A stretch of 64,000 nt of DNA from Lichina pygmaea (lineage: Eukaryota > Ascomycota > Lichinomycetes > Lichinales > Lichinaceae): positions 3,250,914 through 3,314,913 of the forward strand of contig OY730174.1 in NCBI GenBank assembly GCA_963422465.1. The letters are read 5' to 3'. The first letter of the stretch is position 1; every line of letters starts with the position of its first letter. A model generated the notes under the pieces. The model saw nothing but the letters and a program-made list of their open reading frames with translations, searched no databases and was not told the origin of the DNA. Made by a program: the position numbers and the translations under genes. Shown here one piece after another: positions 8,001 through 60,578 of the stretch.

Positions 8001-8298
8001 GAAGGGGGATAAAGTCTACCTCCTCACGAAAAATTGGAAAGTCAAGAAACCAAGAACAAAGAAACTGGACCATGTCAAGGAAACATTCCATTACCAACCA
8101 GAGGAAGAACAGGAATTCAAGGTCGAACAGATCTTGAAGAAAAAAAGTCAGTGATACCTTGTCAAGTGGAAAAACTACCCAGACTCAGAAAATACCTGGG
8201 AACCACTCAAGAACCTTGCGAACTACCAGCTCCTCCTGCAGCAGTTCTGGCAGGAGCAGGACTGAACAGCTTGGCCTGCAGCGCAGACATGTCAATGA
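5100..8298 (+). pseudogene. pol: B1 pol, broken
   Basis: Pol of a chromovirus: protease (D-S-G-A-S-G, about 5180), RT, RNase H, integrase and a chromodomain that ends at TGA 8296-8298. It is riddled with stops, mostly TGA at ancestral CGA codons (after N-F-N, after K-N before the RT core, after F-R-T). The RT box reads Y-L-D-N instead of Y-L-D-D, which abolishes catalysis. Near 8075, about 350 bp of the integrase C-terminal region is missing compared with B3, the cut falling between GG dinucleotides. The chromodomain (V-E-Q-I-L to W-E-P-L) survives. The start is the conserved ATG 38 bases after the gag stop, in the -1 frame. Confidence 0.85.
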
Positions 8299-8707
8299 CT
8301 GTTGCTGACAAGTCTTCACCATCCACCTCCATCTCAGCAACCAGGCACTGCAGCTTCTTCTTGGCACAACCCTCAGCACCTTCAAGGACCTTCCACTTTC
8401 AGGACACACAAGCCTGCAGCTTGGCAAGCTGCTCAACAAGAGTATTCCTCTTGGCCTTGTCAACAGCCAAATCCTCGCAGAGGTTATCTCGGGTCATGTT
8501 CAGTGACTCCCAAGAAAGTGACACACAGGATTTCCCATGACAAGTGCACTCAGCACACTTCAACTTATTGTTGTTGTCAGACATTCGGAAGCAGAGCTTG
8601 TGGTTCAAAACACAGAAGTCACATAGAGCCAGTGACACAAAGTTATGATCACAGATCTGGGCTGCCAGTTGTCTTCAGTAAGCAGAGGCATGTGATTTCG
8701 CAGACAT
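8207..8707 (-). pseudogene. B1 antisense zinc-cluster/coiled-coil gene
   Basis: Opposite-strand reading frame of 501 nt, the same length as in B3, from ATG at 8707 to TGA at 8207-8209 inside the pol chromodomain. It has a Zn2Cys6-type spacing C-x2-C-x6-C-x11-C-x2-C-x6-C (about 8515-8610), then S-W-E-S-L-N-M and a helical, charged segment, and ends G-S-S-Q-G-S. Two in-frame TGA codons break it, after A-S-A-Y and after A-C-V-S. It is alignable with B3 over its whole length without gaps although the nucleotides differ, which suggests past coding constraint. The loop between the second and third Cys (V-L-N-H-K-L) differs from the R-G-containing loop of the other B copies. Function unknown; a DNA-binding role is inferred from the cluster only. 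Confidence 0.75.
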
Positions 8708-8751: not shown

Positions 8752-9403
8752 TGTTACAACCCTGGGACAGGAGACACTTATTTATAGGCCATCAGGCCAC
8801 GGGCCAGGCAAGAGGAACACCATGGAAGTCAAGTGACCAACCAACAAGGGGTTATGTGACTGTCAAGACACATACAGGTGGCTCGACACAGCATGCATGA
8901 AGTATCAAGACAATCTCACCTGTCTTGACACAGGATGCAGGAAGCATCAAGACAGCCTCACCAGTCTTGACACAGCATGCATGAAGTATCAAGACAATCT
9001 CACCCATCTCAACACAGGATGCATAACATGGTGGGACTGTCAAGACAATCTCACCTGTCTTGACGCAGGGTGCATAACATGGTGGGACTGTCAAGACAAT
9101 CTCACCCATCTTGATGTCAAGACTGTCAAGACAATCTTGATTGTCTTGACTAGTCAGCACTATATAGTCTGGTGATAGTTCCCTTATGGAACAATCATCT
9201 TCAACTTATGTTGTGATCCAGACAACTAGATCTACTTTAATACAATCCTTTTGTACAAAGCCATTGATCAGGTGTCACCACCACCACATTCCACCAAACC
9301 CCTTCACACTCCTTGACACTCCTCTCCTGTGAGAACCAACCCGCCTTCCACCTCTCACCCTAATCCTATACTCGGATAGAACAGTACAGTACAGACTGCA
9401 ACA
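8752..9403 (+). repeat. B1 3' LTR (652 bp, type-1 repeats)
   Basis: TGTTACAACCC...TGCAACA. Its U3 has tandem units (about 8881-9135) built on TCAAGAC...GTCTTGA inverted words, not the GTGAGC/GCTCAC words of B3 and B4. A sense TATA (CACTATATAG) lies near 9160 and a TATAAATA on the minus strand near 8790 faces the antisense gene. It follows a purine tract (8735-8751). Confidence 0.93.
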
Positions 9404-19300: not shown

Positions 19301-19646
19301 ACTATTTTCAGTCGAAGAAAGAACCGGACCAGTCAACGTCAGACTGCGACTACCAAGGGATGCCAGAGTCTATCCAAACTTTCATATATCAATGATTGAA
19401 CCAGCCGACCAGAGCACACCCTTGCAGGAAACATTCCATTACCAACCTGAAGAAGAACAAGAGTTTGAGGTTGAACAGATCCTGGCTAGGAAAGGTCAGC
19501 AATACCTTGTCAAGTGGAAAGGATACCCAGACTCAGAAAATACCTGGGAACCACTCAAGAACCTTGCGAACTGCCAGCTTCTTCTGCGACAGTTTCGGCA
19601 GGAGCAGGACCGAACAGCTCGGCCTGCAGGAGGGACGTGTCAATGA
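16314..19646 (+). pseudogene. pol: B3 pol
   Basis: Best preserved family B Pol. Protease D-S-G-A-S-G-N-Y near 16395 and G-M-P-W-L near 16612. RT core with Y-L-D-D at about 17450. RNase H with T-D-A-S-D near 17893 and T-D-H-K-N near 18095. Integrase core (F-I-T-K-L-P to T-A-Y-H-P, 18585-18872). GPY-type module, then the chromodomain (V-E-Q-I-L... Y-L-V-K-W-K-G-Y, 19470-19600). About six nonsense codons remain, e.g. TGA 17331-17333, TGA after N-F-N near 17717, TAA near 17931 and TGA after Q-T-E near 18895. It ends four bases short of an antisense TGA codon and overlaps the longer antisense frame by 92 nt. Confidence 0.9.
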
Positions 19647-20055
19647 CTGATCAAGTCAAATCCTCGCCATCTGACTCCATCTCTTTCACCAAGCACTGAA
19701 GCTTCTGCCTCGCACAGACCTCGGCGCCCTCCAACACCTTTCGCTTCCGAGACAGACGAGCCTGCACTGTGGCAAGTTGTTCAAAGAGTGCATCATGTGT
19801 TGCCTCGTCAGTGGCAACATCCTCACGGAGGTTGTCCCGGGACATGTTCAAAGATTCCCAGGACACAGAGACACAAGACCTTCCGCGCCAAGTGCACGCA
19901 GCACATTTCAACTTATCGTCTTCTCCCGGCATCTGGAAGCACGGACGACCACGGAGAACACAAAAGTCGCAGGGCGTACGCGAAACAAAACCCCGATCGC
20001 GGATTTGAGCAGCCAGCTGAGTTCAGCTAATAGTCGCACGTGACTTTGGAGGCAT
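19555..20055 (-). pseudogene. B3 antisense zinc-cluster/coiled-coil gene
   Basis: Frame of 501 nt on the strand opposite pol, from ATG 20055 to TGA 19555-19557. Order: short N-terminus, zinc cluster C-x2-C-x6-C-x11-C-x2-C-x6-C (about 19880-19975), S-W-E-S-L-N-M, a 60-residue charged helical stretch with a likely coiled coil (19660-19860), and an acidic Ala-rich tail ending G-S-S-Q-G-S. Two in-frame TGA codons (20023-20025, 19651-19653) sit where CGA is plausible. The cluster spacing equals that of fungal Zn2Cys6 DNA-binding domains. A TATATAAA box on the same strand (20125-20132) and the LTR edge lie just upstream. Likely role: DNA- or RNA-binding regulator of the element; this is inference. 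Confidence 0.78.
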
Positions 20056-20098: not shown

Positions 20099-20678
20099 TG
20101 TTACGACCCAGGAGGAACACAGTCTTTATATACTCACAGAAAGCAGCAGACAGGATACTGGACAGAAGTACCAGACAGCGTGACACGGGAACCGGTCACG
20201 TGACTGGCGAGACAAACCAGGGGGTGCTCGCCGCAGCATGCATATGCACAAACAAGTGAGCAAAGTGAGCAGAGCTCACCCAGCTCACCGCAGCATGCAT
20301 GAAAAGTGAGCAAAGTGAGCAGAGCTCACCCAGCTTGCCGCAGCGTGCATGAAAAGTGAGCAAAGTGAGCAGAGCTCACTTATCTCACTGAGTGAGCAAA
20401 GTGAGCAGAGCTCACTCTGCTCACGAACTGGGCACTATATAGCCAGGTGATAGTTCCCCTATGGAACGATCATCTTCAACTCATGTTGTGATCCAGACAA
20501 CTAGATCTACTTCAACACAATCCTTTTGTACGAAGCCGTTGATCAGGTGTCACCACCACCACGTTCCACCAAACCCCTTCGCGCTCCTTGACACTCCTCT
20601 CCTGTGAGAACCAACCCGCCTTCCACCTCTCGCCCTAATCCTATACTCGGATAGGACGGTACGGTACAGACCGCAACA
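20099..20678 (+). repeat. B3 3' LTR (580 bp)
   Basis: Same ends as the 5' LTR but four dyad units (about 20257-20415) instead of two, explaining the 86-bp length difference. Preceded by the purine tract GATGGAGAGGAGGATAG. Sense TATA near 20435. Confidence 0.95.
20125..20132 (-). promoter_or_regulatory. Antisense TATA box in family B 3' LTR
   Basis: TATATAAA read on the minus strand, 70 bases upstream of the antisense zinc-cluster ATG (20055). The same box is at 47338-47345 in B4, 54 bases before its first ATG. The type-1 LTR of B1 has TATAAATA at the equivalent place. Confidence 0.6.
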
Positions 20679-33365: not shown

Positions 33366-33636
33366 TGTGACAAGGCAATGGCAGAGCAGAACTCAAGCCT
33401 AACTGATTTGGTAACCTTGACCTGACTTGGCTTGAGACTTGAGACTTGGATTGATGTACAAGGCGAAAGACGAGGAAGGAAAAGAGAAAAGAAGAGAAGA
33501 AGCTGGGGGAGCAGGAGAAGTTCTTATAGGCAGGGGATCAGGCAACGGCGGAGCAAACAGGCAAACAGTGCAGATGGGACTTCCCGGCAAGGTGCGTGGC
33601 TTGTGCCAGATATGCAACTGGGCCAGAACTGTGACA
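33366..33636 (-). repeat. A3 3' LTR (271 bp)
   Basis: Begins TGTGACAAGG, ends CTGTGACA; adjoins the pol stop (TAA, 33637-33639) and the purine tract on the minus strand. Confidence 0.95.
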
Positions 33637-36332
33637 TTACCCCCCTCCTTCACATGGTGAACTCCTGTGAGCCTCAGGCCGCTTGTGGGTGTAGTTCCGT
33701 GGCTGTGGTTTCCTTGGGTATTTCTCATGGAAGTTGTAGATGGCGTCTTTGGTGTTGTCAAGATGCTCAATAGGCTCTTCAGTAGTATCTTCGATTGGCT
33801 ATCCAGACTATTTGACCAGGTACTTGAACTTCTGTCAAGATGTTGCTGGCTTGGAGTCAAGGATTTCTTCAACCTGGAACTCTTCATCTGTGTCTTGACC
33901 AATGACAGGGCCAGGGTGTTCATTTGATTGGCCAGGGATAGAATTAGCAGGTGTCAGATGTAGAAGGGAAACATGAAAGACAGGGTGGATCTTGAGAGTG
34001 TGTGGAAGCTCCAGATGGCAGGCACAGCTTCTGACTGTCTTCAACACCTTGAATAGTCCAATCCACTTGTCGTCAAGCTTTTTGCATGGGCGGTGTGTCC
34101 TGATGTTCTTGGTATTCAGCCAAACAAGATCTCCAGTTCGATAGGATGGTGACGGGACTCAATGCAAATTAGTAGTGTGAGCTTGAGCTTCCTGGGATAG
34201 TCGGAGTTCAGCTTGCAACTGTTCTAGAATCTGCGTCATTTCTCCAGAGATTTCCATAACATCTTGGTTGCAGGCTTCACCCATGGGTGTGATGCTGAGC
34301 CGTGGATGGAACCCTTTGTTGGCAAAGAACAGTGACATGCCAGAGGAATCAGACTGGGAGTTGTTCTGTGTGAACTCTGCCAGAGGAAGCCATTGGACCC
34401 AGTCATCTTGGAGATAGTTGACATAGGATCTCAGGTAGCGTTCAAGCTCCTGATTCTCTTGTTCTGTCTGACCATCTGTCTCTGGGTAGTGTCCTGAGGA
34501 TAGTCGTAGCATGACGTCAAGATGGGCACAGAGTGCTTTCCAGAATAAGCTGACAAACTGACCTCCTCTGTCTGAGACAATGCTCCTGGGCAAGCCATGG
34601 GTACAGACAACAAACTGGATGAACATCCGGACAAGATGTGAGGTTGTCATCTCAGCACATAGCACAAAGTGGTGTTCTTTGGTGAGACAGTCAGTGATGA
34701 CCCAGATGTGCTTGGCACCAGGGAAGCAGGCATCTCTTGACTTGGGCAAGTCAGTAATGAAATCCATAGCCAGATCCTGCCAACATTGCTGAGGCATGGG
34801 AAGAGACAGCAGCTCTCCTTGGCGATCACGGGCAGGCTTTGCTCAAGAGCAGACATGACAATTCCTGATGTACTGCTGTATGATGTTCACCATCTTTGGC
34901 CAATAGTACCAACAAGACAGAAGATTGTGGGTCTTGGCAATCCCAGTGTGGCCAGCCATTGCTTGGTCATGGACTTCTTGGAACAGGTGTAGGTGTAGCT
35001 CATTGTTCTCAGGGATCCAGAGTCAGTTCTTGTAGAAGAGACAGTCATTTTCCAAGCTGCAGTCTGAGAGAGACACTTCTCGACTGTGCCTGACACCATC
35101 CCTTAGCATCTGTGACACTGTTGCCACTGGATCACCTTCAGCAAGGTTGTTATAGGCAGCTTGGATAATGTCTGAAAGAGGTGTAGCATCAGGTTCAGTG
35201 TCAACTGGTGCAGCTTCTGAACATCTCAGGATCTGGATGGACTTGACTTGAACCTCTGAATGTGTAAGATTCTTGGGCTTGAGGATGACTTGCTCCATGA
35301 AGTCTTGACAGGGATCACTGTCTGACAGGAGGTCTTGGGAACGTTGAGTGAGGGTGTCAGCCTTGCACTGACTGCCTGGACAGTAGCTGATCTTGAAATT
35401 GAAGTGTGACAAGAACTCGCTCCAACAGGCTTGACAGTGGGAAAGGTACTTTGACGACATGAAGTACTCCAAGTTCTTGTGATCAGAGATCACTTTGACA
35501 GGTTCTGGAGATCCTTCAAGCTCTACTCACCATTCTTCAAAGACACAGACAATTGCCAGCAACTCTTTGTCGTAGATTTCGTAGTTGCATTCTGCCAGCA
35601 GGTGGCGGTGTGACAAGAAAGCAACAGGGCGTAGAACTCCTTCATGGTCTGGCTGTGACAGGACAGCACCAGAGATGTAGTCAGAAGTGTCAGTCTCAAC
35701 AACACACTCCTTCTCCGGATCAAAGTGCTGCAGGATGGGTGCAGTGCTGAACACCTTCTTGATGCTTTCAAACAAGCGCTGCTCTGGGGTTTCCCACTTG
35801 AAGGCAACATTCTTCTTGGTCAGAGCTGTGAGCGGGGATGCAAGCTTGGCAAAGTCTTTGATAAACTGGTGGTAGAAGTTTGCAAAGGCAATGAAGCTCT
35901 GCACTTCCTTGAGACTGGCAGGAGGCTTCCACTCCTTGATGGCGTCAGTCTTGGCTGGGTCCATACTCACAGATCCAGGTCAGCTGTCTTCAGTGGCAGA
36001 CTGAATGATGAGGCCAAGGTACTTGACTTGATGGACTTCAAAGTTACACTTGGAGATGTCAACTTGCAGGCTTGCATCTCGTAGTCGACTGAGAACAAGC
36101 TTGACATGCTTCCGGTGTTCCTTGAGTGTCTGACTGTAGATAAGGATGTCATCCACATTTTTTATTTTATTTTATTTGATTCTTACACTGGTAGTAGCTT
36201 TACAGCCATGCAGATCTTCTAGCTAATAGTGAACTCCTTCAGAAAACCTTTGAAGAGATAAAAACTGAAGGCAGGGTGTGACTAGGGAATGTAACAAAAG
36301 GAATCTTGAAGTTTCTGGTAAGAGAAGAGAAT

Positions 36333-37455
36333 CTAGGTATTGGATTGGGAATAGTGGAGTTTGAAAGCTAGATTAAACTGGTTTAGTCTTTTCAAAGACA
36401 TAAACCAGTACAAGAACTTCTGTAGTAGCTCTGGGTTTGAAATAATAGTGGTGAAGTCTTGGGGATTAAAAGAGACTTGTTGTCTTTGTCTTGAATAAAG
36501 AGAGCATGAAGAGGTGATATGTTTTGCAGTTTCTTCTGCTTGGCCACACACACATAGTGGGGTAGGGAAGTCAGGAGCTCCAGCTCTGAAAAGAAAACTT
36601 GCCAGACCAATTCTTCCAGTCCTGATTTGCAGTAGCAGACTTGCCTCAGCTTTCTGTAACTCTTTGTAGAGCTTCAGATTGTTTTTGTGTGGCTTTTGAC
36701 AGAAAGTCTGCCAGCCTGGATAGCTTCTTCTTTTCTTCTCTTCCCATTGGTCTTCCCACTCTTTAGTAAAGAGCTTTTGTAGTTCTTTCTTTGAACTAGC
36801 CTGGTTAGTAGTTATTTGACTTAACCAAGTGAATTTCCACTTAGGAGAGATAGTTGAGGATTCCTTTAAAGGTTTCTTCAAGAGAGAGGCATAGCTGGAA
36901 ATAGTGGAAAAGATACTGTCAAGAAAGTATTTGAGAGGGGAGTTTTGAATAGAAGAAAGAAAACAGGCAGTGCGAAATTTAAAGTATAGGTCTAGAGGTA
37001 GAAGAAAAAGCTCACTCTCTAATAGAAAAGAAGGAGTGGCTTTGAAGGCACCCCCAATAAGTCTTAGGCATCTGTTTTGAAATGAAACAAGAGAAGAGAT
37101 ATTGGAGGATTTTCTTAGAGGGTTAAACCAGATCTCCACTGCATAGCTCAGTAGAGATCTCAGTATAGCAGTGTACACCAGACGTGATGTGTGAACTGGA
37201 AAGCCCCAAGTAGAATAGGAAGTTCTAGAAAGAGAAGAGAGTGCTTTCTGTGCTTTTTGAAGAATAATCCTCTGGTGTTTGTGCCAGTGGAGCTTTGCAT
37301 CTAGGTACACTCCAAGTACTCGCACTTCTTCTTTTGGTTTGAGAATCACATTCCCCAGTCTGAGCTTGAGCTGAAGATTGTCTGATCTTCTTCTGGAAAA
37401 ATGAAGTATTTCATATTTCTCAGGAGAGAAGACTATTCCATGTCTTGCAGCCCAG
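36333..37455 (-). pseudogene. LINE-2-type ORF2 3' fragment in the chimera
   Basis: Open frame of about 370 codons with no start, corresponding to the region after RT (thumb, linker and the C-terminal C-x-C-x8-H-x4-C finger at about 36500-36560). It ends at the normal stop 36333-36335, extending 16 codons beyond LINE-2 where a CAG became TAG. Lacking endonuclease and RT motifs it cannot act alone; mobilisation would have been in trans. Confidence 0.85.
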
Positions 37456-38575
37456 GATCCACAGTCATACTATGCCAGAACATAGTGTAGAGTTGGCACC
37501 CCCCCACAGGGTCTCTACCACACTTTCCCACAGTCCTGAGGTCTCTTGCACTCCGCCGTACGTGCCCACCCCTGGGATCCTGCTTCGGAGCACTGGGTCA
37601 CCAGCCCAGAGCCCACGCTCCAACTGTAGTTTGCTCTCTGAGCTTGTTGTTTGCAGCCTAAGCCTGCACTCCGTACAAACCGGCATGCGCATCCGTCCTC
37701 TCGGGCTATATAGACAGTCTTGTAGTAGGCCCAGGCCCTACCTCCGTCACTGCCATTATATGCCACACCTCGCAGTTGTTAACTGTTTCGTGTTACCTTC
37801 GCAGATCTCTCGTACAAAGGCCGACCATGCCTCGCAGGCCTTACAGACCCTGCAGGCCGTGCCAGCACCTGCAGGGCCACTTTTCCAGCCCACTAACCAA
37901 GTAGGGAGGAGTTCTCCTTGGTCCGCTGTTGTCTGTGGGGCCCCGGTTGCACCTGTTGGCCCACTGGATAACTCAGTCCCCTGGCCCCAGATTGTGGATT
38001 GTATGAAGAGACTTTGTGGCAAGGCCTTAGGCAAAACCATCAAGCCAGCACTTTGGCTATCACACAGCCCTTAGGCACTGGAGTGGCGACGTCTCCTCGT
38101 ACGACCACTCTCCTTCTTTAACAGGTGGTCTGCGTTCGATTAACAACACCACAGTGCCGAGGCCACTCCCCCCCTAGCAGATCCTCACGTGTTAGCTGGA
38201 GACTCTGCTAGAAGGGTGACGTGACGAGAACTCCTCTCGACTACTCCAGAGGTGCCCTATCAGACGTCTAGACTTCACATCCACCAGCTGTGGGGCTGGC
38301 TTCGGGCTGTAGCGCACACGGTAGTCGTCTGTCGGGTGGTTTTCATCTCCCAAGCTTGGTCGCAGTTCTCTGTTCTGCTGTAGCTGTTTCACAGGGGTGT
38401 CCAGGGTGCCTGCGCGACACCTCCGGTGGCCTGTCACTCCGCAACACCAGCAGCTCGACTGGTGACTTGATTAGCTCTCAGTGCAGCGACTACAAGCAGC
38501 CTGGGAAGCCGCCCGCCATCGACTGCCCTGAGGTTCCCAGCCTGCACCACGTGGAGGTTCGAGTCGTTGCAGACT
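37456..38575 (-). other. CpG-rich 5' module, uninterrupted copy
   Basis: 1.12 kb collinear with the three LINE-1 pieces ending at 26755 and showing the empty sites of B3 (CTAGCAGAGTCTCC near 38208) and A2 (GGAGGTAGGG near 37740). Many CpGs. It contains an imperfect inverted repeat, CTAGCAGA...TCTGCTAG, at 38173-38211. An antisense frame is open across most of it, but differences between the two copies are mostly amino-acid changing, so I do not call a gene. Confidence 0.75.
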
Positions 38576-39827
38576 ATGTCATCCACATAGGCAGTGCCAA
38601 AGACGTCAAGGATGTCAGGTCCCAAAACATCATTGATGTAGTTCTGGAACATGCTTGGAGTATTGGCAAGACCAAAGGGCATGACAAGGTATTCGTAGAG
38701 GCCTGAGCGTGTGCGGAACGCAGTCTTCCATTCTTCACCTTCCTTCATCCAGATATGGTTGAAGGCACCAACAATGTCAAGCTTGGTGTACCACACAGCT
38801 TTGCAAAGCTGGTCCAATATCTCCCAGATCAGTGGTAGGGGGTAACAGTTCTTGATGGTGATGGTGTTGAGTGCTCTGTAGTCTACACAGAAACACAATC
38901 CACCTTCTGGCTTCTTGACAAAAAGGACTGGTGCAGCAGCAGGTGATGAAGATGCTTGAATGAAGCCCTTGTTCAGGTTCTCTGTCAGGTATTTCTTGAG
39001 AACTTCAAGTTCTTCTCTGCTCATGCTGTACAGAGGTCCAGAGAGTGCCTGGGTTCCTGGTTCCATCTTGATCTCGTGGTCAACTCCTGGGCGTAGAGGA
39101 GGAAGCTTGTCAGTGTCATCCTTGCTGAAGACGTCCAGGAACTTGTGGTACTGAGCAGGGAGAAGTGTGGCAGAGTCCACACACTTCTTTGGCTTCAACA
39201 CCTGCTCAATGTCTCTCAGAGAAACACTGAACACCTGGTGATCTGGCTTGGCAGCAAGGAGAGAAAATACAGCAGCATTGATGGGGATTGGCGTGGCAGA
39301 AAGAGGCTTGGGATCCTGAGGCTTTCCAGCAGACATCTTGGCTTCAAGATCCAAAGAGATTGGATAGCTATTGTTTGACTTGAGGCATGCGGATCAGCAG
39401 TGATCTGACTTGAACATGATTGAGGTGTTTGCCCAATCAATGTGTGGCCTGTGCTTCTGGAGCCATGGCATCCCCAGAATCACATTATAGTGAAGACCAG
39501 GAGACACAAAGAGAGAGACTTCTTCCTGGTGCACACCATGTGCTGTGGTCATGATTGTCTTGGTGAGATGCGTGGTTTGTGATGTCTTGCCATCAAACAA
39601 TCACAATGTGCGTGGGTAGGGGAGAGGTTCTTGGTGAAGAGATTGCGCAAAGGAAGCACCAATGCAGCCAAATGCTGAACAGCCAGAGTCAATAAGAGTA
39701 TTGCACTTGAATTTCCCATCTAGGATACAAGGAAGAAACAAGCACTTGCTGTCCAATTGCTGGTCTGGAGACAGATAGCCAACATGGAGATCCTTTTCAT
39801 GTCCTTGGGTGTGACGATAACCAAGGA

Positions 39828-40784
39828 CTACTTGTTTTCCGACTCTGGAGTAGTCTCAACAGTGGCAGACTTGGTGGTGGTTGTGGTGGTGGCAACAACA
39901 GGCATGCTTTTCACTGGACAGAAGGTTGAGATATGACCTTGGTTCCCACAGTAGAAGCAGAGACCTTTGCTTCAGCGATGTTCTCACTCTTCTGGCGTCA
40001 GCTTAGAGTGGCTGAGATCCATAGTAGGACTTGGTGGCTGTGGTGTGAAGACTGGCTTGATGAACCCTGGACACAGAACTGAAGCTCCTGACTGTGGAAC
40101 TGAGGCTTGGGTGGGAGGTGCTTGACGTGGACAGCGAGAGTTGGCAGAAGTGGCACGCAACTGGTTGTCCTGCAGCTGGCATTCCTCAACAAGCTTCTGA
40201 TAGCTGATGTCCTTGAGGTTGATGCTGACAAGCTGCTTGGCAAGCTCTTCAGAGACAGCACATCGAAGATGGCACTTCAAGGCCTTGTCGTTGAAGCCTG
40301 TGTGTGGAGCATACTGATTGAACTCTGTGAAGAACTCGGCAAAGGAACAGTTGGCCTGACGTAAGGTGATAAGCTTTCTCTGAGCTAGGAACTCTGGGTC
40401 TGGGTTGGAGAAGGTGTTCCGGAGATCTTGGACAATGTTGTGCCAGTCAATGTACTGGCCAGCTGTGATCTTAGCTGAGATGTAGGACTGCGCAGTGCCA
40501 GTCGTGCGTGAAAAGATGTACGCAATCCGCGATGTTTCCGTGGGGTACCGGTCAGCGTTGAGCGTCATCTTGAGTGACAGTGACATGATGAAGCTCTCAA
40601 GCTTCTCATGCGTGATTTCCGTGTTTCCGCCATCACCACTGAAGATCTCTGGGTCAGCAGTGTGTTCAGACTTGGACTTGGGAGTAGTGTTAGTAGCTTG
40701 AATTTGCATGAACTCTGCAAACATGTTGTGAAGGAACTTGTTATTTCCAGCAACTGGCATGGCTTGGTCTGGTTGTTGAGACAT
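39828..40784 (-). pseudogene. gag: A3 gag
   Basis: Best preserved family A Gag: ATG 40784, open for 266 codons to a TGA at 39984, with a second TGA close by at a likely CGA codon, then the CCHC knuckle (39935-39975) and TAG 39828-39830. The N-terminal half has the capsid-like helical region typical of Ty3 Gag. Total 957 nt. Pol overlaps in the -1 frame. It has no Cys/His tail, unlike B and C. Confidence 0.87.
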
Positions 40785-40842
40785 GACAAGGACGTGAACA
40801 TGGCTTGGTGAAGTGTGTTATAGTTGGGTAGGTCTTTCGCAG

Positions 40843-41113
40843 TGTGACAAGGCAATGGCAGAGCAGAACTCAAGCCTAACTGATTTGGTAACCTTGACCT
40901 GACTTGGCTTGAGACTTGAGACTTGGATTGATGTACAAGGCGAAAGACGAGGAAGGAAAAGAGAAAAGAAGAGAAGAAGCTGGGGGAGCAGAAGAAGTTC
41001 TTATAGGCAGGGGATCAGGCAACAGCGGAGCAAACAGGCAAACAGTGCAGATGGGACTTCCCGGCAAGGTGTGTGGCTTGTGCCAGATATGCAATTGGGC
41101 CAGAACCGTGACA
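40843..41113 (-). repeat. A3 5' LTR (271 bp)
   Basis: TGTGACAAGG...CCGTGACA, next to the CAGAC duplication. Confidence 0.95.
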
Positions 41114-46689: not shown

Positions 46690-47371
46690 TGTTGCGGTCT
46701 GTACCGTACTGTCCTATCCGGGTATAGGATTAGGGCGAGAGGTGGAAGGCAGGTTGGTTCTCGCAGGAGAGGAGTGTCAAGGAGTGCGAAGAGGTTTGGT
46801 GGAACATGGTGGTGGTGACACCTGATCAACAGCTTTGTACAAAAGGATTGTATTGAAGTAGATCTAGTTGTCTGGATCACAACATGAGTTGAAGATGATC
46901 ATTCCATAAGGGAACTATCACTGGACTATATAGTGCCCAGTTTGTGAGCACAGTGAGCTCTGCTCACTTTGCTCACTCGGTGAGATCAGTGAGCTCTGCT
47001 CACTTTGCTCACAGTTTATACACACTGCGGCAAGCTGGGTGAGCTCTGCTCACTTTGCTCACTTGTTCATGCACACTGCGGTGAGCTGGGTGAGCTCTGC
47101 TCACTTTGCTCACTTGTTCATGCACACTGCAGTGAGCTGGGTGAGCTCTGCTCACTTTGCTCACTTTTCATGCACGCTGCGGTGAGCAGGGTGAGCTCTG
47201 CTCACTTTGCTCACTTGTTCGTGCATATGCATGCTGCGGTGAGCACCCTCTGGTTTGTCTCACCGGTCACATGACTGGTTCCCGTGTCATGCTGCCTGGT
47301 ACTTCTGTCCAGTATCCTGTCTGCTGCTTTCTGTGAGTATATAAAGACTGTGTTCCTCCTGGGTTGTAACA
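46690..47371 (-). repeat. B4 3' LTR (682 bp, six dyad units)
   Basis: TGTTGCGGTCTGTACC...GGGTTGTAACA. Six GTGAGCTCTGCTCACTTTGC-type units at about 46950-47215. The plus-strand TATATAAA (47338-47345) near its inner edge points at the zinc-cluster gene. Confidence 0.95.
47338..47345 (+). promoter_or_regulatory. Antisense TATA box in B4 3' LTR
   Basis: TATATAAA 54 bases before the first in-frame ATG (47399) of the antisense gene. Same position as in B3. Confidence 0.6.
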
Positions 47372-47398: not shown

Positions 47399-47857
47399 TT
47401 GATGAAATCTAGTCATGCCTCCAAAGTCACGTGCGAGCCCTGCGACTTTTGTGTTCTTCGTGGTCATCTGTGCTTCCAGATGTCAGGAGAAGACAATAAG
47501 TTGAAATGTGCTGCGTGCACTCAGCGTGGAAAGTCTTGTGTCTCTGTGTCCTGGGAATCTCTGAACATGTCCCGGGACAACCTCCGTGAGGATGTGGCCA
47601 CTGACAAGGCAACACACGACGCACTCTTTGAACAACTTGCTATAGTGCAGGCTTGTCTGTCTCAGAAGTGAAAGGTGTTGGAGGGCGCTGAGGTCTGTGC
47701 GAGGCAGAAGCTTCAGTGCTTGGTGAAAGAGATAGAGTCAGATGGCGAGGATTTGACTTGATCAGTCATTGACACATCCCTCCTGCAGGCTGAGCTGTTC
47801 AGTCCTGCTCCTGCCAAAACTGTCACAGAAGAAGCTGGTAGTTCACAAGGTTCTTGA
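47399..47857 (+). pseudogene. B4 antisense zinc-cluster/coiled-coil gene (58-bp deletion variant)
   Basis: 153-codon frame, opposite to pol, ATG 47399 to TGA 47855-47857, with in-frame TGA at 47669-47671 and 47759-47761. Compared with B3, 58 bp near 47436 are missing; this changes the frame, but an upstream ATG brings the zinc cluster back into frame. C-x2-C-x6-C-x11-C-x2-C-x6-C at about 47447-47535, an extra C-x2-C just before it, then S-W-E-S-L-N-M and the charged helix. Both stops fall at likely CGA codons. The tail overlaps the pol chromodomain on the other strand. A truncated product of 90 residues containing the whole cluster is still possible. Confidence 0.75.
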
Positions 47858-52654: not shown

Positions 52655-53334
52655 TGTTGCGGTCTGTACCGTACTGTCCTATCCGGGTATAGGATTAGGG
52701 CAAGAGGTGGAAGGCGGGTTGGTTCTCGCAGGAGAGGAGTGTCAAGGAGTGTGAAGGGGTTTGGTGGAATGTGGTGGTAGTGACACCTGATCAACAGCTT
52801 CGTACAAAAGGATTGTATTGAAGTAGATCTAGTTGTCTGGATCACAACATGAGTTGAAGACGATTGTTCCATAAGAGAACTATCGCCAGACTATATAGTG
52901 CCCAGTTTGTGAGCACAGTGAGCTCTGCTCACTTTGCTCACTTGGTGAGATCAGTGAGCTCTGCTCACTTTGCTTACAGTTTATGCACGCTGTGGTGAGC
53001 TGGGTGAGCTCTGCTCACTTTGCTCACTTGTTCATGCACACTGCGGTGAGCTGGGTGAGCTCTGCTCACTTTGCTCACTTGTTCATGCACGCTGCAGCAA
53101 GCTGGGTGAGCTCTGCTCACTTTGCTCACTTTTCATGCACGCTGTGGTGAGCGGGGTGAGCTCTGCTCACTTTGCTCACTTGTTCGTGTATATGCATACT
53201 GTGGCGAGCACCCTCTGGTTTGTCTCACCGGTCACGTGACTGGTTCCCGTGTCACACTGCCTGGTACTTCTGTCCAGTATCCTGTCTGCTGCTTTCTGTG
53301 AGTATATAAAGACTGTTCCTCCTGGGTCGTAACA
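52655..53334 (-). repeat. B4 5' LTR (680 bp, six dyad units)
   Basis: Same ends and unit number as the 3' LTR; sense TATA (CTATATAG) near 52890. Inner side begins CTTTGAAGACCCTCAAGG on the minus strand, where a primer site is expected but no TGG is present. Confidence 0.95.
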
Positions 53335-54290: not shown

Positions 54291-54643
54291 TGTTAAAGGC
54301 CAGTCCACGTTCACACAGAATGTGGGTGGTCCTGTCTTCGACCGAGGAGGGCAGGGACTCAATAGATGAATAGCAAGTGGGGTAACTCTCTTGCTATTGT
54401 CGCTCGTAATGTGCGTTCAGCCTGGAGAGCTATTCTCTCCGGCTATCTGGGTTCTTATATACAGGAGCCTGAGGGGGGGGGGGTCCTCCCGAGGGGTATC
54501 AGCTTTCTGCGTGGACGAGCTCCTCGCTTAGCTCCTGCTCGTCCACCGGACGAGCTCCTCGCTTAGCTCCTGCTCGTCCACCGGACGAGCTCCTCGCTTA
54601 GCTCTTGCTCGTCCACTGGGCTGTTCTGGCCTAGGCCTTAACA
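54291..54643 (-). repeat. C 3' LTR (353 bp)
   Basis: TGTTAAAGGCC...GGCCTTAACA; an 11-G run near 54472-54483 versus 10 in the other LTR. On the minus (sense) strand TATATAAG is at 54454-54461. Confidence 0.96.
54511..54616. repeat. Triple 35-bp dyad in C 3' LTR
   Basis: Three head-to-tail copies, each an inverted repeat with GGACGAGC at one end and GCTCGTCC at the other and CGG at the unit borders. An identical array lies at 60446-60551 in the 5' LTR. It is upstream of the TATA on the sense strand. Confidence 0.92.
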
Positions 54644-54704
54644 CTATCCCCTCCCTCCAAGGGTTCTGTCCCCAGATCCTTTTTGTTCCTGCTCCTCTTT
54701 TGCC

Positions 54705-55277
54705 ATGAACCAAAGCCAGACAACTCGAACTTGTCGCCGTGGTTTTCTCTCTTGTCGTGTTGGCAAAATGGGCAAGGAATCAAAGATCGCATGCGGTGCT
54801 TGTCGTCGCGACCACGCCAAGTGTGTCGTGAGTTCCGCATCGTCTTTTTGTTGTCGGTGCATCGAGAAGGGTTGTCGCTGTGACCTTCATCTCTCGGAAT
54901 CAGAATGGAAGAAGATGGAGCTTGAGCGCGAGCAGCTCGAGGCTCAGCTGCGGGAGACCGATGACCAACTGTCAAAACTGCTTCCCCGGCAGCTCCGCCT
55001 CCGCCGGCAGCTGGGTCGTCTCTCACAGAAGGAGGCCGATGCCATCCATTGTGAGCTGTCAGCTATCGAGGATCAAGAGTCCCTTGATGCTCAGGAACAA
55101 GAGGCCCTCCGTGTTATCCGCGAACGGGAGGCCCGTCAAGCTGCTGCTCCACCGTCCTTTGAGGACGTCTTCTCTTCGGAGGCTTTGGCTTCTCTCGAGC
55201 TGTTGTCTCCGTCGGACCTGGTCGCTGCGGATTTGCTCGGTGGTAATCCACCAGTTTCTGGTTCATCGCAGAGCTGA
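54705..55277 (+). CDS. Family C antisense Zn2Cys6-like/coiled-coil protein
   Basis: Intact 190-residue frame on the strand opposite gag-pol, starting 61 bases inside the 3' LTR and overlapping the end of pol by 164 nt. Residues about 30-57 form C-x2-C-x6-C-x8-C-x2-C-x6-C, with R after the second Cys and K before the third as in fungal Zn2Cys6 domains. Residues 62-140 are charged, heptad-like and probably a coiled coil. The tail is Ser/acidic and ends S-G-S-S-Q-S. The family B genes have the same order and nearly the same C-terminal end. Spacing, coiled coil and a LTR with dyads suggest a dimeric DNA-binding regulator of the element; an RNA-binding or silencing-related role is possible. No stop or frameshift in the best preserved element. 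Confidence 0.82.
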   Translation: MNQSQTTRTCRRGFLSCRVGKMGKESKIACGACRRDHAKCVVSSASSFCCRCIEKGCRCDLHLSESEWKKMELEREQLEAQLRETDDQLSKLLPRQLRLRRQLGRLSQKEADAIHCELSAIEDQESLDAQEQEALRVIREREARQAAAPPSFEDVFSSEALASLELLSPSDLVAADLLGGNPPVSGSSQS

Positions 55278-58200
55278 AGTTCTCGGTTGGTTCCCACGAA
55301 TTCTCCTCTTCGTCAAATCCTAACCACTTCACCAGGTACTCGATTTTCCGTCCGCTTCTCCGACTGTCTAGGATCCTTTCGACATCGTACTCTTCTTCAT
55401 CGTCCTCGAAGTGCCATTCTGTTTCGATTGCTGCGTCGCTGGGTGCTGGCTCGAGCAGCGAGACATGGAATACTCGGTGTATCCGTGCCTTTTTTGGCAG
55501 TCTCAGTCGGTAGTTGACTTCTCCAGTGCGCTTCTCAATCTCAAACAGTCCGATTCGTACATGATCCAGCTTTTTGCTCGGTCGCTTCGAGCGCAGGTTT
55601 TTTGTTGACAAATAGACCTTATCCCCCCTCTCCAGGGTTGGTCCCTTCAACCTTTTGCTGTTTAGGCAGTGGCTTGTTGTCTTTTGTGTGGATTCAATTG
55701 CAGTCTTCATTTCCTCATGCATAGCAGTGAGTTTTTCGATGTTCGTTGAAGTGCCACTTCCAGCCGCCATCGCTTCCCAGTGGGGGTTTCTGCCGTAGTT
55801 CGCAAAGAACGGCGTCATGCCCGTCACGCTGTGTTGCTGATCATTGTACGCAAACTGAGCCATTGGTAGCAGTTCTACCCAATCGTCCTGTCGGTGGTTG
55901 ACGTAGTGGCGTAGGTACTGTTCCATCGTCTGGTTTGTTCTCTCAGTTTGTCCGTCTGTTTGTGGATGGTAGGCAGTAGACATCCTCGTGTCTATCCCTA
56001 GCTGTCTTGTCCACGTGTTCCAGAATTTCGAGGTGAAGAGTTTGTCTCGATCCGAGATAATCTTCGTGGGTAGCCCTCGCTGGCTAACCAATTCTTTGAG
56101 CAGGACATTGGCGAGTTCGCTCACTGTTCCTGTCTCTCGCCACGGGATCAGGTGAGCGTATTTGGTGAGTTTGTCAACAACCACCAAGATACTGTCATAT
56201 TTCACCTTTGTTACCGGGTCCTCTGACCTCGGCAGCTTCACCACAAAATCCATTGTGATAGTATCCCAAGCCACTTCTGGGAGGTCCATTTGTAGACTCT
56301 CTCCATAGGGTTTGTGGCGTGACAGTTTGTTTTTCGCACACTCTTCGCAGTTGCGAATAAATTCCGTCACTTTCCACTTTATTCCGTTGAAGTGGTAACG
56401 TCTCCGGATCTTTTCCAGGGTCTTGTCTCGCCCAGGATGTCTGTGTAGAGGTCCATCGTGATGTTGTCGAATCACGTCCTCTTGTGCGCTCTCTGGCACT
56501 TCTTCCTTGTTCGTGGCCGCAACGTTGTGGCCTAGGGTCAGGAGTGCACCCATTTCTTCAGTTCTCGCTAACTGAGGTTGAGCATAGACCAGAGTTTGTC
56601 CTTTTGTCACTAGGATTGGGCGCTCTTCTGTCGTGTCGTCTGTCGTCATATCAGGCCGTCTGCTAAGCGCGTCCGCTCGTGCGTTTTCTGATCCTTTTCG
56701 ATAGAAGATCTGGAAGTCGTATGAAGCTAAAAGCTCCGCCCATCGGACTTGTCGTCTGTTTAGCTTCTTCGTTGTCGTGAAGTAAGCCAAATTCTTGTGG
56801 TCTGAGTACACGTCCACTGTGTACTTTGCTCCTTCCAGGTAAGGTCTCCACTCCTGGAATGCGTCGACAATCGCTAACAACTCCTTGTCGTGAACATCGT
56901 ACCTGAGTTCTGGGCCAGAGAACTTTCTTGATCAGTATGCAACAGGGTGTAGGCGGTTTTCGGCGTCTGGTTGACACAAGCAAGATCCAAGTGCTTGGTC
57001 CGAGGCATCTGTCTCCATGATGATCCGCCGTCCGGGATCAAATGATGCCAGTATGGGTGCGGAGGTGAACTTCTCTTTCAGCTCCTGGAACACTCTTTCT
57101 TGGCTGTTCCCCCATGTGAAGGTTTCTTCCTTCTTTGTTAGTTCAGTCAAGGGTGCTGCTGTCCTCGAGTACTCCTTGATGAATCGTCGGTAGAAGTTTG
57201 CAAATCCCAGGAAGGATTGGACTTCTTTGAGGTTTTTGGGTGTTGGCCAGTCTCGTACTGCCGTAGTTTTTGTATCGTCCATACGGATTCCTTCTGTCGT
57301 CAGGATCAATCCCAAATATTCCACTTCTTTCACGTGGAAGACGCTCTTATCAAGGCGTAACCTCATTCCTGCTTCTTGGAGCGCATGTAGGATCTTCTTG
57401 ACATGCTGTTTGTGCTCCTCCAGGGTTCCATTGGTGTAAACCAAGACATCGTCGATATAAGCGGTAACAAATATATCCAGGTATTGTCGGAGGATGGTGT
57501 TAATGAGTGATTGGAACGTCGCCGGTGCATTCGTAAGGCCGAATGGCATAACGGTATACTCGTAATGCCCGTACCTCGTACGAAAGGCTGTCTTCCATTC
57601 TTCGCCATCTTTCATCCTAACCAGGTTGAAAGTGCCTTGGATGTCGAATTTGGTAAACCACTTGGCTCCTTGGATTCAGTCCTGGATTTCCGATATTAAC
57701 GGTAGCGGGTAGTGATTCTTAATCGTGATCGCATTGAGCTGCCGGTAGTCGACACACAGTCGTAATTTGCTGTCTTTCTTTGGCACAAACAATATCGGGT
57801 ATCCGGCCGGTGATGTTGAAGGTCTTATGAACCCTTTCGCTAGGTTCTCGTCCAGGTAATCTCTTAAGGCCTCAAGCTCCTTTGCTGATAGAGCGTAAAT
57901 AGGGCCATGTGTGGGTTTCTTTCCGTCTTCCAGCGGAATTTCGTGATCCCACTCTTGGTGTTCTGGTAGCGTCGCGACCGCTTCCTCACCAAACATCTCC
58001 TGGTAGTCTTTATACTCACTTGGCAGCTGCGGTGCCTGAGTCTCGCCCACGGCGTCATGCGTGGTGCAAAGTTGATGGTTTCGGGGCTTCATCCAAGCCA
58101 CATAGGCTCGCCCTCGCCGGTGGTGCTTCTTCCACCCTGCATATAAGATCTCTTTGATTCTCACTTTCTCTGGCTCTGCTCGAGTTGCCAGACTCCTCTT

Positions 58201-58701
58201 CGGAAAGACTAGGTGCCTTCTTTTCCAGTCGATCCTTGGGTTTTGACTTTCCAACCACGGAAGACCCAATATAACTTCATGTGGTATCTGGACCAAGTCG
58301 AATTCTTCTGATCTGATTGTCGTACTGTCGACACACAGTCGTAGGTTCTTGGTCTCCTTCGTCACTCGTCCTTGGTCGTTGGAGAGTGGTGTCCCGTCCA
58401 CTACCGTTAGTTGGTATGGATTCCTCTTTTCCTGAGTCGGGATCTTGTGCTTCCTGGCGAAACTTTCTGACATGAAGTTGCCAGTAGCTCCAGAGTCGAT
58501 CATGGCGTTTGTCAGATGCCCGTTGACTCTCATCCTGATGCGAAAATGCGGACTGCAGGCTGTCGCGTCGAGGCTCTGCTCGACCCCTTCTCTCCGGAGT
58601 GTTGTCTTGCCTGCTCTTCCGACTCCGGATTTGAAGAGCACTGCTAGTTTTTTGAACAACCAAGGCCCTGAGCCTGGCGTTCTGCCGCGTGTCTTTCGCA
58701 T
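55114..58701 (-). pseudogene. pol: C pol (two TGA codons)
   Basis: Pol in the -1 frame, overlapping the gag end by 58 nt. Protease I-D-S-G-A-T-G near 58500 and G-L-P-W-L near 58270. RT interrupted by TGA 57676-57678 (before I-Q-G-A-K), catalytic Y-I-D-D near 57455. RNase H with T-D-A-S-D near 57010. TGA 56932-56934 after V-A-Y. Then open for 588 codons: H-x-H/C-x2-C near 56345, integrase core with T-A-Y-H-P-Q-T-D, GPY-like module, chromodomain (V-E-R-I-L... Y-L-V-K-W-L-G-F, 55270-55420). Stop TAA 55114-55116. Both TGA codons are consistent with CGA ancestors. Confidence 0.92.
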
Positions 58702-60188
58702 TTTTCAGTGAAGCATAGCTCCCATGCGTCTTCTCCGCAATCATCGCGTTCTTTCCCTTGCTGGCTTAGCTGGTGCTTGATGCTCCAGGCTTTCTTGTGG
58801 TATTCTGGGCCAGGGAAGTAGTGCCTTCTTCTTTTCTCTAGGAGATGTTCCTTGCAGTGGTGGTCCTCACATCCTTTCCAATAAGGACGTCTGCAGGCTG
58901 GTGTTGTAGCCTGGTGATAGTCCACTTGCGCTGCGATGTCTCGGGGCTGTGAGATGCTGATGGTGTCGTCCACCCATCGCGTCACTCTTGCTTCGCCGTC
59001 CTCCGACAAGGTCGCATCCTGTTGTCGGAGTAGTGGTGTCTCGGGAACTGGTGGCATGCCGGTTATGTCAATCTCGTAGTCTGTTGTGTTGAATTCGGAG
59101 ATCAGGTCATCCTCCCAATGAACCTTATCGATCTGGTCTTGGATTGTGTGCAGGTCCTCCAGTGACCTCTGCAGATCGTTCTCCAGTCTTTCGATGTGCT
59201 GTCTGAGATTGTCCTCCTGTCCGAGGAGTGTTGCTTCTGACCGGTTCATGGGTAGCGTGCCTCTGGGGGCCCTCGGTGGCTCCTGAATACCCTTGCCTTT
59301 CCAGGCACCGGTGGCATTCAACTGCTTACCCTTGCCTTCTTTCTTCTTCTTGCTTTGGCAGTTGGCTGCGAGGTGTCCTACCTTCTGGCAATTGTAACAC
59401 TTCCGTGTTTCTTTCTTCTTTGTTGCCTGTGGTGTTGTTGCATCGATCTCCATGGGTGTCAAGCTGTACTTGTCTTGTGCTGGCGCTGTCTTTTTGCCCC
59501 ATGGCCTTGCATGCTTGCCTCGCTTCTCGAGTTCTTGTTCGAATTGTCGGTCGTCGATGCGTACCGCTGTGTCGATCATATCCTCGAGGTCGGTGGGTCG
59601 GTCTCCTTGTGCGATGTCATCCTTGACTCGTTCCTTGAGAGCTTGGTAGAATAGTGCCGTCAAGGCACTGTCTCCCCATTGTGTCCTCACTGACAACTGT
59701 TGGAACTTCGCCGTGAAGTCTGATGCTGACCCTGTCTGCCGTAGTGCTTGGAGCTTTCGTTCCGCATCTTGTTCTTCATCAATGACCCCGAAGGTCTTCT
59801 TCATCTAGGTCTTGAAGGTAGAGAATCTCCCAATGATCTGCCGTGTCATGGTCTCCATGCTAGAGGGATCTTCCTTGTTGTCGAGGAAGTCTCGTAGGTA
59901 GACATTAAACCAGGCAAATGTCGGTCTGTCCAGGTAGGAAGCTGCGAACAGCACCTTCTCCTGTTCCGTAGGGAATTGTGCGGTGTTGAATCTGTAGTAA
60001 AGCTCAAGCTGAGAGAAGAATAATTCCAATCCCCCTTGTGATCCATCGTACCTCTTCGGCGTACCTACCTTCAACAGCTTTGGAGGTAAGGTGAGGGTGG
60101 TAGGGACAGGTGGTTCCTGGGCTTGCGCCTGAGGTGCAGCCCGGGCTTGGCCTGCCTGCGAAGGGGTAGGGCTGCGTGGATCTGCCAT
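58644..60188 (-). pseudogene. gag: C gag (one TAG)
   Basis: 514 codons from ATG 60188 to TGA 58644, with one TAG at 59805-59807. Pro/Gln/Ala-rich N-terminus, capsid-like region (60030-59500), one CCHC knuckle C-x2-C-x4-H-x4-C (59358-59402), a coiled stretch, and a C-terminal Cys/His region (58700-58890) with two C-x4-C-x2-H motifs that line up with those of family B Gag. Forms the particle and packages RNA. The start lies 38 nt from the LTR. Confidence 0.92.
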
Positions 60189-60226: not shown

Positions 60227-60578
60227 TGTTAAAGGCCAGTCCACGTTCACACAGAATGTGGGTGGTCCTGTCTTCGACCGAGGAGGGCAGGGACTCAATA
60301 GATGAATAGCAAGTGGGGTAACTCTCTTGCTATTGTCGCTCGTAATGTGCGTTCAGCCTGGAGAGCTATTCTCTCCGGCTATCTGGGTTCTTATATACAG
60401 GAGCCTGAGGGGGGGGGGTCCTCCCGAGGGGTATCAGCTTTCTGCGTGGACGAGCTCCTCGCTTAGCTCCTGCTCGTCCACCGGACGAGCTCCTCGCTTA
60501 GCTCCTGCTCGTCCACCGGACGAGCTCCTCGCTTAGCTCTTGCTCGTCCACTGGGCTGTTCTGGCCTAGGCCTTAACA
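60227..60578 (-). repeat. C 5' LTR (352 bp)
   Basis: Identical by eye to the 3' LTR apart from one G. Sense TATATAAG at 60390-60397; dyad array 60446-60551. The internal region starts GTTTCAGCCTCTAAC, with no TGG primer site. Confidence 0.96.

Follow-up and report, generated by a model that had tools for sequence, protein, structure and literature searches.

Some retrotransposons of plants and fungi carry antisense genes of no known function adjoining the 3′ long terminal repeat (LTR) (PMC7264820). One of these genes is brtn of Boty, placed after pol and before the 3′ LTR (Zhao et al. 2011, as cited in PMC7264820), and a figure legend in a survey of fungal chromoviruses mentions an additional open reading frame (ORF) of unknown function (PMC2864245). 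The antisense ORFs of the plant elements Retand, Grande and RIRE2 (gene23, TRP28) also lie at this place (PMC7264820, PMC11963269). We analysed a stretch of 64,000 nucleotides from Lichina pygmaea (GCA_963422465.1, contig OY730174.1, positions 3,250,914 to 3,314,913), here called the window, whose numbering is used throughout. It holds a Ty3/gypsy element, element C, with an antisense ORF between pol and the 3′ LTR. Genes in this antisense position were already known; new here are the cassette of ORF and U3 with type-specific arrays and the mosaic build of element C.

Compared with the ORF of element C, brtn of the Boty-like elements in Botrytis cinerea and Sclerotinia is likewise an additional antisense gene in a fungal chromodomain Ty3/gypsy element, and it too sits in the gap that separates pol from the 3′ LTR (PMC7264820, PMC8365987, PMC4227169, PMC5987419). 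The two were compared by description only, and the portions of these papers that describe brtn link it neither to Zn2Cys6 nor to U3 arrays. The plant ORFs differ in having a TRP28 (PF04195) domain, much longer regions and repeats between pol and the LTR, and the available portions of their descriptions mention no exchange together with U3. The first-pass annotation of the window had stated that Ty3/gypsy elements normally encode only Gag-Pol. The known antisense genes of plants and Boty (PMC7264820) do not agree with this. In the open-licence papers searched we found no report of an antisense gene of Zn2Cys6 type or of one coupled to U3.

An intact gene of 190 codons, antisense to gag-pol and placed between pol and the 3′ LTR, had been noticed in that annotation, and we confirmed it: the ORF at 54705..55277 on the plus strand has no internal stop. 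Element C lies on the minus strand, with its 3′ LTR at 54291..54643 and its 5′ LTR at 60227..60578 (both from blastn). The distance from the ORF start to the inner edge of this 3′ LTR is 61 nt in 30 of 30 C loci, of which 29 have the ATG intact. Met22 at 54768 is an alternative start. The early TGA of C copies reflects decay of a single codon, Arg8 (CGA), among the 30 loci. Met22 was considered as the start on account of this TGA and was not upheld; the N-terminal part is similar in the sister family D, and both starts are possible. Toward its end the ORF overlaps by 164 nt with the C-terminal part of pol (ORF at 55114..56880, minus strand, the sense strand of the element), whose domains we take to be RNase H, integrase and chromodomain. 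The pol stop lies at ORF nucleotide 410 in 21 of the 30 C loci and at another place in 4; its motif was not found in 5.

We compared family C with family D, whose protein is 64–69% identical, using 30 loci of each and starting from Met22. The ratio of nonsynonymous to synonymous substitution rates (dN/dS) was 0.14 outside the pol overlap (range 0.10–0.22), 0.22 over the whole length and 0.42 within the overlap. Since dS between C and D is near saturation in general, we also compared the raw proportions of differences (pN/pS) over 106 codons. The ORF frame gave 0.27, the lowest of the six frames, and the other five gave 0.48–2.05. For the zinc part alone a mean dS between C and D was not computable, being saturated in some pairs. 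Families B1 and B2 carry antisense ORFs as well, and between them dN/dS was 0.08–0.11 over codons 1–130 (two loci each; three of the four carry one stop). The frame control for this pair (L061 vs L064) gave a pN/pS of 0.24 in the ORF frame and 0.35–1.95 in the others. A dN/dS near 1 had been named among the outcomes that would count against the claim; outside the pol overlap we found 0.14 for C vs D and the B values just given. Within families the ratio was higher, as expected because copies decay after insertion: 0.24–0.30 in C and 0.47–0.50 in D (non-overlap part and whole length), with up to 0.67 in the zinc part of D. The antisense ORF is a protein-coding gene under purifying selection.

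Could the ORF be a chance frame, or a shadow of gag-pol coding on the opposite strand? It does share 164 nt with pol, and 13 of 30 C loci (but 0 of 30 D loci) also lack stops in one minus-strand frame. The ORF frame itself is stop-free in 29 of 30 C and 29 of 30 D loci, the 60 loci being the best-scoring ones, which biases intactness upward; the remaining frames are stop-free in none. Selection is strongest beyond the pol overlap, no other frame has a pN/pS as low, and the frame and the cysteines are kept in homologs from other assemblies. We rejected a chance ORF by shuffles and by the six-frame comparison of selection, and a shadow of pol by the stronger selection beyond the overlap than in it; we give this explanation almost no weight. 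Another explanation is that the antisense RNA matters and not the protein, as double-stranded RNA or as a silencing trigger, with the ORF incidental. Non-coding roles are known for antisense LTR transcripts (PMC10186651, PMC7264820). The strong synonymous bias in precisely the ORF frame, seen in two independent comparisons, makes this very unlikely.

The protein has an N-terminal cluster of cysteines at residues 30–59 (54792..54881, plus strand), identified by regular expression, shuffles and model. The spacing in the window protein is C-X2-C-X6-C-X8-C-X2-C-X6-C. Zn2Cys6 domains follow the rule C-X2-C-X6-C-X5-16-C-X2-C-X6-8-C, and the antisense ORF proteins satisfy it; thus the earlier claim of six cysteines with the exact spacing of the binuclear zinc cluster was borne out. 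Further cysteines of the window protein are arginines in less decayed copies. When each protein was shuffled 200,000 times, the pattern arose 11 times for the window protein, 0 times for family D and once for B1. The window has 423 stop-to-stop frames that are 60 codons or longer, and the pattern occurs in six of them, namely the C ORF, three family B ORFs and two artefacts. In the two artefact frames (47047-47130 and 53012-53095) the B1 U3 array read as protein imitates the Zn2Cys6 spacing.

The same annotation had placed a coiled-coil-like helix after the cluster, and the AlphaFold2 model agrees. It has helices at residues 31–35 and 50–55 within the cluster and a long, coiled-coil-like helix at residues 65–147 (54897..55145, plus strand), with a block-mean predicted local distance difference test (pLDDT) score of 86–98 from residue 71 on. 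With this model, all 19 PDB matches from Foldseek were Zn2Cys6 DNA-binding domains, every one weak, and with VIA 12 of 12 entries among the matches listed were Zn2Cys6 domains. Weak PDB matches to the c-Jun zipper region (E 0.65–0.83) lie in the long helix, and a basic region was not demonstrated. With the B model, 6 of 21 VIA rows span the cysteine region and all are of Zn2Cys6 class, counting CBF3 (6gys), which we presume to belong there; chains with long helices rank above the zinc clusters.

In the Pfam scan the window protein had no match to PF00172, and none of the scanned relatives reached its curated cut-off, the best being P0006 (E 7.6e-4; 20.0 vs 21 bits). PF00172 was still the commonest weak Pfam match of the C and D proteins, seen at E<=1 in 10 of the 21 members; a finger model of bacterial DNA polymerase III came next, with 7 members. 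The Pfam tables of the antisense ORF proteins held no bZIP, TRP28 (PF04195) or DUF1985/DUF287. The proposed zinc-cluster assignment was thus upheld in part, failing in the profile scan of the window protein and finding support in the weak matches of its relatives and in Foldseek. Because PF00172 scores stay below the curated cut-off, we call these proteins Zn2Cys6-like and not members of the family. They resemble GAL4, PUT3, LEU3 and HAP1 in cysteine spacing, in having a cluster and then a helix, and in fold matches. They differ in being encoded by a retrotransposon gene of 157–190 codons, in their weak sequence scores and in being without the large regulatory region of GAL4-type activators.

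Family B had been said to have a homologous-looking gene at the same place. The window has a B1 ORF broken by stops at 19558..20055 (minus strand; cysteine pattern 19873-19971), a second, broken B1 copy at 47399..47857 (plus strand; pattern 47441-47539) and a B2 remnant at 8207..8707 (minus strand; pattern 8525-8623). These copies carry stops; B1 copies without stops occur at other places in the genome (e.g. L061). Position, domain order and the G-S-S-Q type of end were as described, the C-termini of the family B proteins being GSSQGS or GSSRGS. Homology to the C protein was not demonstrated: hhalign gave a probability of 10%, then 84% over 27 columns in a half-cluster register. The B and C proteins have a common architecture.

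Each type of antisense ORF is accompanied by a tandem array in U3. In the 3′ LTR of element C, Tandem Repeats Finder (TRF) located three units of 35 bp at 54513..54616, with 8-bp inverted arms GGACGAGC/GCTCGTCC that are candidate binding sites; the 5′ LTR has the same array at 60448-60551. A candidate sense TATA-like box, TATATAAG, read from the sequence at 54454..54461 (minus strand), adjoins the array. The B1 ORF at 19558..20055 has an array of GTGAGC/GCTCAC type at 20254..20424 (TRF), where the B1 unit matches 20239-20388 and the B2 unit has no match. TRF arrays also lie in the 3′ LTR beside the B1 ORF at 47399..47857 (46944-47225) and beside the B2 ORF (8885-9114). There is one unit type per cassette, of 35 bp in C, 69 bp in D, 50 bp in B1 and 42 bp in B2. 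The C and D arrays have the inverted half-site GGACGAG/CTCGTCC in common, and the C and D proteins may bind each other's arrays. Compared with dinucleotide shuffles, the inverted arms were significant in C (8 bp, P 0.007) and D (9 bp, P 0.016) and not in B1 (P 0.20) or B2 (P 0.12).

By eye, the B1 and B2 arrays look related, and their palindrome arms differ together, GAGC/GCTC in B1 and GAGAC/GTCTC in B2. To the eye, such a joint change is as might be expected if the specificity of a dimer had shifted. In all four B1 and B2 loci an antisense-oriented TATA lies 34–35 bp inside the LTR edge, the ATG lies 43–44 nt beyond the edge, and a second TATATA is found on the far side of the array. This is the predicted layout of a bidirectional promoter. 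No antisense TATA of the B type was seen in C or D (one locus each).

At all 60 C and D loci examined, the array closest to the ORF was of the matching type. Two D loci also have a C array further out, which most likely belongs to a neighbouring element. In the window, all three B ORFs with the cysteine pattern adjoin arrays of their own type. The C and D loci have nearly identical R-U5 and pol in common and differ in U3 and ORF.

The window copy (L001) was compared with a D locus on the backbone that we call alpha (L042) and a C locus on the beta backbone (L026). Over the first 113 aligned LTR positions (R-U5) its identity to L042 and L026 was 100% and 70%, respectively. Across the U3 array and the ORF (784 and 778 positions) the values were 75% and 94%, in a switch zone of 150 positions 95% and 90%, and in pol past this zone 98% and 78%. 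L012 is the same mosaic with an earlier left switch: over the next 73 positions it had 79% and 86%, compared with 100% and 72% in L001. By these three-way identities alpha-C elements are recombinants, and the window element C joins alpha gag-pol and R-U5 with a beta U3 array and ORF. Older C copies agree with this. Six of the 30 C loci sit on the beta backbone. All 12 low-ranking C loci were nearer beta in pol, and 11 had the C array while one had neither an array nor an R-U5 match. Of eight older D-like loci, seven were nearer alpha in pol and one match was too short to tell; a D array was recognisable in four and a C array in none.

By sequence identity, B1 and B2 repeat the C/D exchange pattern. 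Their identity is 92–100% in R-U5, falls to 38–71% in U3 and 55–80% in the ORF before the pol overlap, and is 88–92% in the overlap, 72–92% in the next 240 pol columns and 87–100% thereafter. These patterns indicate that the antisense ORF and the adjoining U3 array are swapped between elements as a single cassette. Co-transfer is explained by linkage and by itself is no proof of co-selection.

The exchange of gene and array together suggests that elements bring their own switch. We propose, at about an even chance, that the ORF encodes a transcription factor of the element itself, made from the 3′ LTR, which would bind the U3 array of its own element and activate or de-silence it. The product would be a small homodimeric DNA-binding protein in which an N-terminal cluster of Zn2Cys6 type is followed by a long coiled coil and then by a short tail that is acidic or rich in serine. 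Its antisense transcript would originate in U3 of the 3′ LTR, and the protein would bind the tandem inverted-repeat array. The array lies where an upstream activating sequence would be placed, whether it served the sense promoter of the 5′ LTR or an antisense one in the 3′ LTR, and a coiled-coil Zn2Cys6 protein would bind such inverted repeats as a dimer; for these reasons we propose a transcription factor of the element itself, most likely an activator or anti-silencer. From the 5′ LTR array, just upstream of the sense TATA, the protein would most likely activate or de-silence transcription of the element, and from the 3′ LTR array it would also drive its own gene. In this proposal zinc and DNA binding, dimerisation, target, antisense transcription and the sign of the effect are all inferred, and the sign is the weakest step.

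During reverse transcription, both new LTRs receive their U3 from the 3′ end of the RNA. A factor gene that adjoins the 3′ U3 would therefore remain linked to its sites, and one template switch in pol could carry factor and cognate sites together. The odd location of the gene would thus have a reason. In a wider form, which we hold a little short of even, array and antisense Zn2Cys6 factor would make up an exchangeable self-recognition module of fungal LTR retrotransposons, its specificity diversifying and the module being swapped between gag-pol backbones by template switching; in this way an element would activate or de-silence elements of its own kind but not its rivals. One antisense gene of this kind now has a plausible biochemical identity and a plausible target within its own element. 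The natural swaps in this genome tell which factor should recognise which array, so that a handful of proteins and four short DNA arrays would be enough to test the question.

The same protein acting on the same U3 target might instead be a repressor that controls copy number or latency. The array beside the sense TATA is a place where a repressor could act too, and self-restraint may benefit a parasite. Most Zn2Cys6 proteins are activators, which weighs against repression. High copy numbers have also been reached: in the genome searched (32.5 Mb, 8 contigs) the C query gave 279 first-look candidates and the B query 502, of which 150 were scored in each case. HBZ of human T-cell leukaemia virus (HTLV) type 1 damps sense transcription (PMC10186651) and is the described example on the side of repression, which we nevertheless consider unlikely here. 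HBZ/APH of HTLV resemble the proposed factor in being antisense proteins from the 3′ LTR that act on sense transcription, and HBZ dimerises through a leucine zipper; as described, they differ in having bZIP instead of a zinc cluster and in acting via host bZIP partners (PMC10186651).

A third explanation is a zinc and coiled-coil accessory protein that does not bind U3 and serves in Gag or integrase aid, nuclear entry or chromatin targeting, with the arrays bound by host factors and joined to the gene by linkage only. Adjacency would suffice for co-transfer, the binding of factor to array is a prediction, and nuclear localisation and an accessory role have been discussed for plant antisense ORFs (PMC7264820). 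On the other side, the fold matches are specifically to DNA-binding domains, and the arrays differ from cassette to cassette even where, as in C and D, R-U5 and pol are almost the same. Family A, a Ty3/gypsy element with 271-bp LTRs (33366-41113; one element), served as a negative control and had neither a U3 array nor an antisense ORF with the cysteine pattern, just an unrelated 86-codon frame. We regard a purely accessory protein as improbable, and a factor that recognises its own U3 array remains our preferred explanation. VANC of the Arabidopsis VANDAL elements offers a parallel, as a transposon protein whose targets are often tandem repeats in its own element that vary between related elements (PMC5735166). 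The parallel is one of workings only, as VANC in this account belongs to a plant DNA transposon and has the unrelated domains DUF1985/DUF287.

Family D has 61 copies that are 85–100% identical to the D query, and 53 of these have no stop in the matched part; the counts for the C and D queries overlap and are not additive. Among the C copies L001-L030, C>T and G>A changes make up 411 of the 570 departures from the majority letter of the column, and 337 of the 570 lie at CpG. We read this decay as a sign that CpG sites are targeted by mutation or methylation in the host. A mitochondrial L4-like protein of this genome was closest to the Neurospora mitoribosome entry 6ywe (229 bits; the next, a yeast entry, had 108 bits), in keeping with a filamentous ascomycete, and a search for 5.8S gave no match.

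B-type homologs also occur in other assemblies. One of them, P0074, was matched in this genome at no more than 64% identity (150 scored of 506 candidates). Of 1540 candidates from a search with a B-type profile, 177 proteins scored at E<=1, and identity among the 120 best of these falls as low as 20–35%. Of the 31 B-type homologs available with 140 aa or more, 27 kept the cysteine spacing. By its sequence spread, the B-type family is old and present in other genomes. P0094, P0170, P0176, P0185, P0187 and P0188 are remote, apparently decayed relatives with 20–30% identity on short contigs, and they retain an SWESL-like motif after the cluster.

The two LTRs of element C are 99.7% identical (blastn), which indicates a young insertion. 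Despite this identity and the open antisense ORF, gag-pol of the window copy is split over several ORFs (55114-60188, minus strand). A pyrimidine run on the plus strand, read from the sequence at 54644..54661, adjoins the 3′ LTR and is presumably the polypurine tract of the minus-strand element. Element A of the negative control holds an ORF of 338 aa at 36333-37349 (minus strand), which we take to resemble the C-terminal part of the reverse transcriptase of a non-LTR retrotransposon.
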